DNA of 64,000 bases from Sphingobium arseniciresistens (lineage in GTDB: Bacteria; Pseudomonadota; Alphaproteobacteria; Sphingomonadales; Sphingomonadaceae): assembly GCA_029167225.1 (NCBI GenBank), contig JARFNK010000009.1, positions 62,001 through 126,000 on the forward strand, written 5' to 3'. A program made the position numbers and the translations under genes. Below are positions 57,744 through 62,923 of the stretch, one piece after another. The notes below the pieces were generated by a model that saw only the letters and a list, made by a program, of their open reading frames with translations, made no database searches and had not been told where the DNA came from. Numbering within the stretch: the first letter of the stretch is position 1; every line of letters begins with the position of its first letter.

Positions 57744-58789
57744 TGTGCGCCTCCATAGCGCGTCAGCATGAGGAAGCCCGACACCAGGAACACGAACAGC
57801 AGCGAGGTCGGCAGGAAGATCTTCCAGCCCAGCCGCATCAGCTGGTCGTAACGGTAGCGGGGCACCGTCGCCTTCACCCAGGAGAAGACGAAGAAGAAGA
57901 ACAGGATCTTGGCGAACAGCCAGATGATGCCGGGCACCAGATACAGCGGCGCCCAGTCGAAGGGCGGCAGGTATCCGCCCCAGAACAGGATGGCGTTCAG
58001 CGCGCACATCAGGATGACGTTGGCATATTCGCCAAGCCAGTAGAGCGCGAAGGCCATGGACGAATATTCGGTCTGGTAGCCCGCGACCAGCTCGCTTTCC
58101 GCTTCGGTCAGGTCGAAGGGCGCGCGCGCGGTTTCCGCCATGGCGGAGATCAGGAACATGATCGCCATCGGGAAGAGCAGCGGGTTGAAGCCGTTACCGT
58201 TGATGAAGCCGTAATAGCCCTTCTGGCTCTCGACGATGGTCGAGATGTTGAAGCTGCCGGCCCACAGCACGACGGTGATCAGGATGAAGCCGATCGAGAC
58301 TTCATAGGAGATCATCTGCGCCGATGCGCGGATCGCCGAATAGAAGGGATATTTGGAGTTCGACGCCCAGCCCGCCAGCACCACGCCATACACGCCCAGC
58401 GAACTGATCGCGAGAATGTAAAGCAGGCCGACATTGATGTCCGCCAGCACCACGCCCACGTCGAAGGGCACCACCGCCCACGCCATCAGCGCGACGGTGA
58501 AGGTGATGATCGGCGCGATCAGGAACAGCGCGCGGTTGGCGGCCGACGGGATGATGGTTTCCTGCAGGAACACCTTGGCGCCGTCCGCGAAGGACTGAAG
58601 CAGGCCGAAGGGACCGACGACGTTGGGACCACGGCGCAGCGCCATCGCCGCCCAGATCTTGCGGTCGGCATAGATGATCATCGCGACCGCCAGCATCAGC
58701 GGCAGCGCGATCACCAATATGCCGATGATCGTCGAGAGGAACCAGGCAAGGCCGAACGGCGCGCCCCAGGATTGAAAAAGCGCCGTCAC
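57740..58789 (-). CDS. nuoH: NADH-quinone oxidoreductase subunit H
   Basis: A 349-residue, eight-helix subunit that forms the quinone-binding chamber with NuoB and NuoD. Signatures are [25 protein letters not shown] and [26 protein letters not shown]. It is coupled at both ends by four-base overlaps, with nuoG upstream and nuoI downstream. Confidence 0.98.
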
Positions 58790-60792
58790 TCTGCGGCCTC
58801 CGCAAGCGTTTCACCATGGACCAGTTCGGCTGAGCAGCGCTGCATCGTCGGGCTTGCCCGGCAGATCGCGTTGGTGAGGTAGAAATCCTTGATCGGCGAA
58901 CCGAACTCACCGGTCGCGCCGGTCGGCAGCGAGGGCGGCGCCCAGTCATAGGTTGCAAGCCCAAGCTCGCCAAGCGCGGGAACGGCCTTTGCCATCTCGG
59001 CGCGCAGCGCTTCGAAGCTGTCGAACGGCAGGGTCGCGCCCATCACGTCGGACAGGGCACGCAGGATCGACCAGTCCTCGCGGGCGTCGCCCGGCGCGAA
59101 CACGGCCTTTTCGCCGCGCTGGACCCGGCCCTCCAGATTGACATAGGTGCCGGCCTTTTCGGCATAGCTCGCACCCGGCAGGATGACATCGGCGGCATGT
59201 GCGCCCTTGTCACCATGATGACCGATATAGACGGTGAAACTGTCCTCGAAGGCGGCATAGTCGACTTCGTCGGCACCCAGCGCGAAGAGCAGCTTCGGCT
59301 TGGCCGCAGCCACCGCCTTGATACCGCCCTGCGTCGCATAGCCCAGCATCAGCCCGCCCATGCGCGCCGCCGCGAAATGCAGCACATTATAGCCGTTCCA
59401 GCCATCCTTCACGAGGCCGAGCGTATCGACCAGCGCCAGCGTGTCGCCATGCGCGCCGTCCTTGGCGAGTGCGCCGCCACCGACGATCACCGCCGGGCGG
59501 GCCGCGCCCTTGAACGCATCGACCACGGCCGCGGGCAGATTGGCGACGAGCGAAGCGTCGTTGCCCAGCCACTCGACCTTGTAGGTCAGGTCCGTTTCCG
59601 GCCCGATCGCGAACACCTTGGCGCCCTTGCGCACGGCCTTGCGGACGCGCGTGTTCACCAGCGGGGCTTCCCAGCGCAGGTTGCTGTTGACCAGCAGGAT
59701 GACGTCCGCCGTCTCGATGCCCGGCAGGGTCGTGTTGAAATTGACCGCAGCGATGTTCGACACGTCATAGGAAAGGCCCGTCTGACGCCCTTCCAGCATC
59801 GTGCCGCCCAGCTTCTGTACCAGCAGCTTGGCCGCGAACATCGTCTCGCAATCGAGCAGGTCGCCGGCCACCGCCGCGACGCTGCCGCCATGCTGGACCG
59901 CAGCGATCGCCGCGAATGCTTCGTTCCAGCTCGCTTCCACCAGCTTGCCGTCCTTGCGGACATAGGGCTTGTCGAGCCGCTTGCGCACCAGACCGTCCAC
60001 CGCATGGCGAGTCTTGTCCGACGCCCATTCCTCGTTCACGTCGTCATTGACGCGCGGCAGCGCGCGCAGCACCTGGCGGCCACGGCTGTCGAGGCGGATG
60101 TTGGTGCCGACCGCGTCCATCACGTCGATGGCGAAGGTCTTCTTCAGCTCCCAGGGCCGCGCCTCGAAGGCATAGGGCTTGCTGGTGAGCGCGCCGACCG
60201 GGCACAGATCAACCACATTGCCCGAAAGCTCGCTCTTGGCGGCGCGCTCCAGATAGGTGGTGATCTGCATGTTCTCGCCGCGATAGATCGCGCCGATCTC
60301 CTCGACGCCGGCGACTTCCTCGGCAAAGCGCACGCAGCGGGTGCACTGGATGCAGCGGGTCATCACCGTCTTGACGATGGGGCCCATATATTTCTCGGTG
60401 ACGGCGCGCTTGTTCTCGTGGAAGCGGCTGGCACCCTTGCCATAGGCGATCGACTGGTCCTGCAGGTCGCACTCGCCGCCCTGGTCGCAGATCGGGCAAT
60501 CGAGCGGATGGTTGATGAGGAGGAACTCCATCACCCCTTCGCGCGCCTTCTTGACCATCTGGCTGTCGGTGCGGATTTCCTGGCCCTCGGCGGCCGGCAG
60601 CGCGCAGCTTGCCTGCGGCTTGGGCGGCCCGGGCTTCACCTCGACCAGGCACATGCGGCAGTTGCCGGCGATGCTCAGCCGCTCATGATAGCAGAAACGC
60701 GGAATTTCCTTCCCCGCAAGCTCGCACGCCTGCAGGACGGTGGCGCCCGCCGGGACTTCCAGTTCTACGCCGTCTACGGTGACTTTTGGCAT
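58786..60792 (-). CDS. nuoG: NADH-quinone oxidoreductase subunit G
   Basis: A 668-residue iron-sulfur subunit of the peripheral arm. The N-terminal [2Fe-2S] domain has [39 protein letters not shown] follows, then the [4Fe-4S] region [14 protein letters not shown] and CPVGALTSK, and a molybdopterin-oxidoreductase-like region. ATG 60792 ([20 protein letters not shown]) begins one base after the stop of the inserted exported-protein gene. Upstream residues in frame are not native. Confidence 0.97.
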
Positions 60793-60793
60793 C

Positions 60794-61477
60794 TCAGTTT
60801 CTCGTTCCAGTCGCCACCGCCGCATAAAGCGTCGATGCGATACGGGTGCGTACATCATCTATGACGATGCGATATCGGGTGCCCAACGCCATGCAATCCT
60901 TAAGAGCATCCGTCATCGAAAGCAGCGCTTCGCGCTCTTCCTTGGTTTCGATCGCCGTGTTCAGCAGCTGGAAAGCGCGAACAGGATCAGCGCGGGCGAT
61001 GCAGGCGCCATAATCGCGCACAAACTGATCGTCAGTCACATAAACCGGACGCACTGCAGGAGCAGCAGAGAGATGGGTGATCCGTTCACGCAATTCCGAA
61101 TTTTCACGCAATGCCACTTCTGAAAGAGCGCCCCTGAAGGCTCCCTTATTAAGTATCAGCATATCCATTCTCATGGTGCCCATGCATACATCGCGACCGG
61201 AAACCAGCTGGCTCCCCAAAACAGCCTCACCTTTGCTACCCGGCTCGCTCGCGAGGAACTGCAAAGACATGGCATTTGCATTTTTCCACGCGCAGCCGGC
61301 AAATTCAGCGACCTTCACGCGGTTCTTCACAAGCTGCTGCGCAGACAGCGGACCTGCTGGAAGCAAAAGCCCCGCAGACAGCAAAATCGCTGATATACCG
61401 CGACCATACAGCCGAAAGCCAGCATTCCGTCGAACGGCCCTTTCGGCAATTCTGATCCGCCGGCGCACGAAACTCAT
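60794..61477 (-). CDS. Exported protein with duplicated Cys-X35-Cys module, inside nuo operon
   Basis: A 227-residue protein of unknown function between nuoF and nuoG. A very basic n-region (1-27) leads into a hydrophobic signal stretch [15 protein letters not shown], with likely cleavage after SA near residue 46. The mature part has four Cys, 62, 98, 159 and 195, in two pairs each separated by exactly 35 residues; the regions around them align, indicating an internal duplication of about 97 residues. The start overlaps the nuoF stop (ATGA), and the stop is one base before the nuoG ATG. The G+C is visibly lower than in nuo genes. It is not a known complex I subunit. Confidence 0.78.
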
Positions 61478-62772
61478 TCCGCCGCCTCCATGATGGGAGC
61501 GCCGCCCTTGTTGTCATTGATCCGCCGTTCGATTTCCGGGCGGAAATGGCGGATGAGGCCCTGGATCGGCCATGCGGCCGCATCGCCCAGGGCGCAGATG
61601 GTGTGGCCTTCGACCTGCTTGGTCACTTCCTGCAGCATGTCGATCTCGCGGATGTCCGCCTCGCCCGAGCGCAGGCGTTCCATCACGCGCCACATCCAGC
61701 CGGTGCCCTCGCGGCACGGCGTGCATTGGCCGCAGCTCTCATGCTTGTAGAAATAGCTGAGGCGCGAAATGGCGCGGACGATGTCGGTGGACTTGTCCAT
61801 CACGATGACCGCTGCGGTGCCGAGGCCGGAGCCGAGCGCGCGCAGGCCGTCGAAATCCATCGGCGCGTCCATGATCTGCGCCGCCGGCACCAGCGGCACG
61901 GAGGAGCCGCCGGGGATGACCGCGAGCAGATTGTCCCAGCCGCCGCGAATGCCGCCGCAATGCTTGTCGATCAGTTCCTTGAACGGGATCGACATCGACT
62001 CCTCGACGACGCAGGGCTTGTTCACATGGCCGCTGATCTGGAACAGCTTCGTGCCGGCGTTGTTCTCCCGCCCGAAGCTCTTGAACCAGGGCGCGCCACG
62101 GCGGAGGATCGTCGGCGCAACCGCGATGCTCTCCACATTGTTCACCGTCGTCGGGCAGCCATAGAGGCCGGCGCCGGCCGGGAACGGCGGCTTCAGGCGC
62201 GGCTGGCCCTTCTTGCCTTCAAGGCTCTCGATCTGCGCGGTTTCCTCGCCGCAGATGTATGCGCCCGCACCGCGATGCACGAACACGTCGAAATCATAGC
62301 CGGAGCCGCAGGCATTCTTGCCCAGGAAGCCCTTTTCATAGGCCTGCTCGACAGCGGCGAAGAGCACCTTCGCCTCATAGATGAACTCGCCGCGGATGTA
62401 GATATAGGCGGCGCGCGCGCGCATCGCGAAGCCGGCGACCAGCGCGCCCTCGATCAGCTTGTGCGGATCGTGGCGGATGATCTCGCGGTCCTTGCACGAA
62501 CCCGGCTCGGATTCGTCCGCGTTGATGACGAGGAAGCTCGGGCGGCCATCCTTGCTTTCCTTGGGCATGAAGCTCCACTTCATGCCGGTCGGGAAGCCGG
62601 CGCCACCGCGCCCGCGCAGGCCGGATGCCTTCATCTCCTCGATGATCGCGTCCTGGCCGCGTTCCAGCAGCGCCTTGGTATTGTCCCAGTCACCACGCTT
62701 CATCGCGGCGTCTATGCCCCAGTCCTGGAAGCCATAGACGTTGGTGAAGATGCGGTCCTTGTCAGCCAGCAT
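61474..62772 (-). CDS. nuoF: NADH-quinone oxidoreductase subunit F
   Basis: A 432-residue flavoprotein that oxidises NADH via FMN and cluster N3. Features are the NADH/FMN loops [13 protein letters not shown] and [35 protein letters not shown] and the [4Fe-4S] motif [13 protein letters not shown]. The start ATG 62772 is one base after the stop of the 49-residue peptide gene. Confidence 0.98.
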
Positions 62773-62773
62773 C

Positions 62774-62923
62774 CTAGCGGCCCTTCCCGATAATCTTTTC
62801 AGCGAGGAAATATGCGCCCACGGCCAGCGCCAGCCCGATCACCACGCCAAGAACGGCACCGATGATCTTGATGGCCAGCACGAGCACGATCAGGCCGATG
62901 ATGATGGCGACGATCGCGCTCAT
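62774..62923 (-). CDS. 49-residue hydrophobic peptide between nuoE and nuoF
   Basis: A short gene missed by typical length cut-offs. It encodes [19 protein letters not shown], continues [20 protein letters not shown] and ends with basic GKGR. It is one very long hydrophobic span or two short helices with glycine-zipper spacing (IGxxxGxxxG-like). The ATG overlaps the nuoE stop (ATGA), and TAG is one base before the nuoF ATG, so it is placed exactly as an operon member. It may be a small complex I accessory or assembly factor. No family was recognised. Confidence 0.7.

Follow-up and report, generated by a model that had tools for sequence, protein, structure and literature searches.

We identified a gene, here called X, that lies between nuoF and nuoG in the complex I operon of Sphingobium arseniciresistens, within the 64,000-nucleotide stretch of DNA that was analyzed (the window). 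Comparison with related genomes showed that X is a real, selected, nuo-linked gene with a patchy distribution. Its product is probably exported, disulfide bonded, and produced together with NuoF. As the best explanation, held tentatively and at slightly less than an even chance, we propose that X is a periplasmic accessory protein of the respiratory membrane, dispensable and subject to fast turnover, that is made together with complex I. A sequence-only reading of the locus had proposed translational coupling, export, domain duplication, and a later arrival of the gene; coupling and duplication gained support and export appears likely, whereas the later arrival is not supported as stated. What that reading lacked is that most congeners have an empty nuoF-nuoG slot, which also accepts unrelated ORFs and has a fast turnover.

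Gene X is on the minus strand (61477..60794, stop codon included), as identified by its ORF and by homologues at the same place, and its product is a 227-aa two-module protein with predicted export. It is flanked on the same strand by nuoF upstream (61474..62772; NCBIfam NF010120, E = 1.8e-250, also TIGR01959) and nuoG downstream (58786..60792; NCBIfam TIGR01973, E = 2.9e-207). The nuoF stop codon (TGA, 61476-61474) overlaps the ATG of X (61477-61475) as ATGA (61474..61477, minus strand), and a single base separates the X stop codon from the nuoG ATG. The coordinates thus bear out the four-base overlap and one-base gap described earlier. We took the nuoG start to be 60792 (MPKVTV), which is also used in the relatives examined; a longer nuoG ORF from 60858 was rejected as merely an upstream extension of nuoG. 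The last nuoF codons contain a GGAGG (61485..61489, minus strand), a likely Shine-Dalgarno sequence seven bases 5' of the X start, and this motif and the overlap argue that translation of X would be coupled to that of nuoF, as had been claimed. The coupled start recurs across the family, with RTGA at the same place in 67 of 71 nonredundant first family copies. The nuoE-nuoF junction of the window is a 147-nt gap (62773-62919).

The G+C content of X (0.556) is below that of nuoF (0.651) and nuoG (0.658), as is its G+C content at third codon positions (GC3 of 0.57 versus 0.873 and 0.843, respectively). The sequence-only reading had taken the low G+C as a sign of later arrival. The low values stand, but they do not support the conclusion as stated: all 18 intact family inserts in the genus have a G+C content below that of their nuo flanks (X of the window ranks 7th of 18), and the position is held in at least 20 genera. 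Since the family occurs at this position in so many genera, the position itself is old, although individual occupants may be gained and lost. In 52 of 71 cases, the G+C content of the slot gene was below that of nuoF. A search of the window genome gave one copy of the X family; a second, weak match (E = 0.317, in a different frame context) was rejected as a nonmember, and its ORF reads as dehydrogenase-like.

Residues 1 to 46 of X (61340..61477, minus strand) comprise a long lead and a hydrophobic segment, a probable signal peptide whose cleavage site was guessed. Judged by a hydropathy heuristic alone, a hydrophobic stretch at about residues 28 to 45 is consistent with a signal peptide, although the 26-residue lead before it is unusually long, and on this basis the periplasmic export claimed earlier is likely. 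The remainder, divided on the basis of sequence, profile comparison, and predicted fold, consists of module 1 (residues 47 to 140; 61058..61339, minus strand) with Cys62 and Cys98 and module 2 (residues 141 to 227; 60797..61057, minus strand) with Cys159 and Cys195. The spacing is 36 positions in both pairs, exactly as had been noted. Checking the homologues, we found all four cysteines to be invariant in alignments of 18 and of 38 members (38/38); in a third alignment, of 23 members, three of the four Cys columns were invariant and the C98 column was smeared by aligner gaps. This invariance across family alignments places the Cys pattern beyond chance. When the 38-member alignment was split, the two halves matched each other (hhalign probability of 99.1, E = 7e-19, score of 93.6), while 30 column shuffles reached at most a probability of 1.41 and a score of 13.5 and a reversed half scored 12.0. 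In an alignment of single modules (23 C-terminal and 12 of 23 N-terminal modules), the two cysteines were kept in 35/35 and were the sole invariant positions. These comparisons support the view that the halves derive from one ancient duplicated module with two cysteines each. The duplication proposed by the sequence-only reading therefore stands, and the two disulfides proposed with it are what we infer from the conserved Cys pairs and export.

The AlphaFold2 model of X, made with 22 named homologues, is all helical (mean pLDDT of 84.2; pTM of 0.76), with residues 1 to 45 poorly modeled at low confidence. Helices are predicted at residues 46-66, 68-76, 82-93, and 111-125 in the N-terminal half and at residues 149-163, 165-172, 179-186, 189-195, and 206-223 in the C-terminal half, which has one additional short helix; the helix order is otherwise similar, so the predicted folds of the two halves do not differ in the way that would speak against a duplication. 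The C-terminal module modeled alone reached a pLDDT of 91.5. Pfam and NCBIfam returned no family for X at E values up to 1. Across the 38 members, Pfam gave scattered matches in one or two members each (best E = 0.0034) and NCBIfam gave a best E value of 4.6e-05, to RlmH models in 2/38 members; both were taken as chance. Fold searches (Foldseek/VIA) gave no convincing PDB relative and no viral fold match.

We then examined the slot in Sphingobium, where 93 of the 94 genomes gave a nuoF match (E up to 1e-100). The downstream side was examined for 93 of the 95 listed nuoF matches (G057 and G070, cut by contig ends, were left out), and 92 loci had both nuoF and nuoG (G080 counted twice). The slot was empty in 58 of these 92 loci and occupied in 34. 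The X family filled 19 of the occupied slots (the G020 copy being broken in two pieces), and other ORFs filled 15, among them 122-aa membrane proteins, 76-aa coiled-coil-like proteins, repeat-derived ORFs, and an aspartyl-protease-like ORF with a weak Pfam match below its cutoff. G067 has a further family copy, which lies beside a nuoF that is cut by the contig end. By profile, the family was present in 31 of 94 genomes, in 20 of them in the slot. Thirteen family matches in the genus lay outside nuo, and at least five of these adjoin an aconitase-like gene (gene names read from sequence). In five such loci (L200, L201, L202, L205, and L196), the copy lies beside the aconitase-like gene, in several with a glycosidase-like gene opposite. 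Across the loci surveyed, within and beyond the genus, several short slot ORFs (L118, L122, L123, L089, L063, and L076) resemble translated palindromic repeats, with recurrent peptide phrases, and in L122 the insert is followed by a duplicate of the nuoF end, GGAGG included. In L124, L063, and L100, the same slot is used by another exported family, whose members carry a single early Cys-Trp motif; a Pfam search with L124 gave no match. One further nuoF (L104, G030:C3), a second copy of 71% identity, had no nuoG start in the stretch examined.

The state of the slot can be read from the end of nuoF. In the genus, nuoF ends in TAA in 58/58 empty slots, and in the 34 occupied slots it ends in RTGA overlapping the next start (32 loci) or in TAATG (2 loci). 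GGAGG is present within the last 15 coding bases of nuoF in 92/92 genus loci, empty slots included. We extended the comparison to named nuoG loci, taking the best 80 of a larger number; the 50 closest are Sphingomonadales or metagenome-assembled genomes (MAGs) near them, and at least five are from genomes also in the genus survey. Among the named Sphingomonadales within these best 80, TAA was found in 17/17 empty slots and RTGA in 27/29 occupied slots, the two exceptions coming from the two organisms that also deviate in the genus set. The GGAGG was found in 25/29 occupied and 6/17 empty slots of the named Sphingomonadales and in 0/30 other alphaproteobacteria, again among the best 80 loci. 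Given the TAA/RTGA pattern and the GGAGG, the nuoF end looks like a ready-made coupled reinitiation or expression site and may work as one.

Slot lengths were compared in the same best 80 loci: 46 of the 50 closest loci were measurable, with slots of ≤60 nt in 17, 61 to 299 nt in 8, and ≥300 nt in 21, and the family was in 17 of the 46, four or more with two copies. In the remaining 30 of the best 80, the slot was ≤60 nt in 25 and the family was found in 0/30. As control junctions in the 50 closest of these best 80 loci, nuoE-nuoF was ≥300 nt in 8/42 and nuoG-nuoH in 0/50. The nuoE-nuoF junction, too, often contains short, mostly membrane-protein-like ORFs (L109, L115, L124, L127, L130, L137, L145, and others).

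Beyond the genus, we defined the X family as the nuo-linked exported double Cys module. X matched the family profiles at E values of 5.2e-46 (alignment A1) and 1.6e-41 (A3), X itself being a row of both alignments. An independent match came from BLASTP of X against the second copy of L148 (34% identity over 205 columns, E = 4e-28), and single-sequence matches to X were found in 9 other genus genomes (E = 2.3e-8 to 6.4e-4). In the order sample, the family was present in 46 of 147 genomes and 20 of 55 genera, and all 46 carriers belong to the window organism's own taxonomic family (f1); in the class sample, it was present in 3 of 241 genomes, all in f1. The search for homologues in other nuo operons placed the family inside the operon in 44 of the 46 order-sample carriers, with the proviso that slot members supplied 35/38 rows of the search profile, which may therefore favor slot copies. 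The family follows nuoF in 42/46 carriers, lies between nuoG and nuoH in 2/46 (G156 and G222), and is away from nuo in 2/46 (G098 and G218, so counted as there was no nuo gene within 1.5 kb). Because two carriers place the family between nuoG and nuoH, its link is to the nuo operon and not to one junction alone. Those two carriers belong to one genus (L245 and L251), and in them NuoH begins where X ends. Two genomes counted as following nuoF have unusual surroundings: G203 has no nuoG within about 6 kb downstream, and in G219 additional ORFs spanning 2.6 kb precede nuoG. In the latter locus (L293), the interval between the family copies and nuoG contains polysaccharide pyruvyl transferase-like and nitroreductase-like ORFs, named from sequence. 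Elsewhere, a 534-aa ORF with 10 cysteines (L218, G191) matches the family profile over its length, as if two copies had fused.

To follow turnover, we built a quick tree from nuoF-end and nuoG-start DNA and compared label changes on it with 500 shuffles. The family label required 17 changes versus a shuffled mean of 17.6 (216/500 shuffles as low) and did not cluster. The empty label required 18 changes versus 27.8 (0/500 as low) and was clustered, indicating that large groups stayed empty. In a quick family tree of 109 rows, X grouped with the second of the tandem copies in Sphingomonas sp. 35-24ZXX and in G150 (SH-aLRT of 99), away from other Sphingobium occupants; tandem copies from one genome were often in different deep groups, and seven nonslot Sphingobium copies formed one group (98) inside the slot copies. 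This arrangement suits an old multicopy slot with repeated loss, exchange, or both. Family members are only about 20% alike, versus above 85 to 90% for NuoF. The synonymous divergence of X was below that of its flanks in 4/4 pairs (NG86). At fourfold sites, one close pair differed at 10/122 positions in X versus 72/333 in the nuoF and nuoG flanks (P = 0.00084); the other three pairs gave P values of 0.046, 0.16, and 0.78, and three of the four pairs share members. Since the signal is clear in one of four pairs, interspecies transfer of X is shown, with reasonable strength, for that pair only. Purifying selection is indicated by dN/dS values of 0.015 to 0.33 in 8/8 close pairs.

In the proposed mechanism, ribosomes ending NuoF would restart on X and continue to NuoG, which would tie the production of X to that of complex I. 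The signal peptide would direct X to the periplasm, where one disulfide per module (C62-C98 and C159-C195) may staple a small bundle of helices. There, at the periplasmic face of either complex I or the respiratory membrane, X could act as an optional stabilizer or could help with assembly; its slot would lose, regain, and swap its occupant. Because the slot swaps occupants, X would belong to a pool of diverged versions, and because most close relatives are without X (58/92 genus slots empty), it is not a core subunit. We lean toward a periplasmic helper since the family keeps to nuo even after the junction has changed (G156 and G222). The placement of 44/46 carriers in nuo, coupled starts, invariant cysteines, purifying selection, and the confident helical model count for this reading. 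Against it count the occupancy that does not follow the nuo tree, the unrelated ORFs in 15/34 occupied genus slots, the larger ORFs of G219, the roughly 20% likeness of members, and the 13 genus copies outside nuo. We consider it unlikely that X stands for a full new class: a periplasmic, disulfide-stapled complex I accessory protein, made in step with NuoF and NuoG, analogous but not homologous to the mitochondrial CX9C subunits of the intermembrane space, and passed between sphingomonads as an optional cassette that behaves like an allele and adjusts complex I to the habitat.

Contact of X with complex I is a candidate role, and a passenger that merely uses the site is nearly as likely. According to this alternative, to which we give appreciable but clearly less than even weight, X would be unrelated to complex I and the junction would be a good expression site (Shine-Dalgarno sequence and steady transcription) where an exported family and small ORFs are parked and spread by recombination in the nuoF and nuoG flanks. 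Patchy presence without clustering on the nuo tree would be expected of such a passenger, as would unrelated ORFs that occupy this slot and share its RTGA start, and the incidence of GGAGG (25/29 occupied and 6/17 empty named Sphingomonadales; 0/30 other alphaproteobacteria). The close pair with 10/122 versus 72/333 fourfold differences (P = 0.00084) also looks as it would after interspecies transfer, but the signal is significant in only 1/4 pairs. A passenger is harder to reconcile with a family that sits in nuo in 44/46 order-sample genomes and that moved within nuo in one genus, and vertical inheritance with loss would likewise keep the place.

An envelope conflict protein is improbable in our view. 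Versions of X would then be swapped for protection or action against a phage, bacteriocin, or rival, with nuo supplying expression only. The strong divergence of versions and the empty alleles found between close species, tandem copies that belong to different deep clades, and a putatively exported protein with probable disulfides are all in line with this idea; on the other side are the purifying selection in 8/8 close pairs, a window slot with no defense or toxin gene neighbor seen, and fold searches without a structural match to immunity or phage proteins. We give hardly any credence to X as nonfunctional filler, in which case its frame would be open for mechanical reasons only and would be decaying because the slot tolerates it. 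The broken genus copy (G020), the low GC3 of the window copy, and the palindromic-repeat-like ORFs that also occupy slots would fit, but the invariant cysteines, coupled starts, and dN/dS values well below 1 argue against it.

The accessory protein explanation has a possible parallel in mitochondria, where, in the part of the structural account cited here, the CX9C subunits of complex I are on the intermembrane-space side and NDUFA8 consists of two disulfide-linked helix-turn-helix motifs (PMC8762328). As far as that part goes, the CX9C (CHCH) subunits NDUFA8, NDUFS5, NDUFB7, and NDUFB10 resemble X in being small and helical, with paired cysteines, on the outer side. Unlike them, X has a Cys spacing of 36 (cysteines at 62, 98, 159, and 195, with CX9C spacing absent) and one Cys pair per module, gave no sequence or Foldseek match to them (the CHCH fold was not among the Foldseek/VIA rows), and is optional within the genus. 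The analogy may serve as a lead; it is not evidence. Closer in phylogeny, the portion of the Paracoccus complex I description used here lists NDUFS4, NDUFS6, NDUFA12, and CI-PIMT as extra subunits and assigns the periplasmic side to beta-hairpins of core subunits (PMC11522691). These supernumerary subunits, like X, stand outside the 14 core subunits in an alphaproteobacterial complex I setting, but in that description they are on the hydrophilic cytoplasmic part or heel, whereas X would be periplasmic and is unrelated to them by the searches run. Should X act on complex I, a bacterial complex I would have an optional accessory protein on its periplasmic side, the side on which mitochondria have helical subunits with disulfide bonds. 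Otherwise, the locus remains a clear example of a coupled expression site at a conserved operon junction, repeatedly filled and emptied among close species. Its state can be read from the sequence: TAA marks an empty slot and RTGA an occupied one, with GGAGG in the codons of the upstream gene.

Unidentified reading frames (URFs) in alphaproteobacterial nqo/nuo operons are extra ORFs between complex I genes, as X is. In Brevundimonas (L182) and related MAGs (L176 and L178), we observed a lipoprotein-like ORF in the same nuoF-nuoG slot. These ORFs have no recognizable similarity to X, lack a repeated Cys module, and are unmatched by the family profile, but those of L178 and L182 share with X the RTGA overlap.
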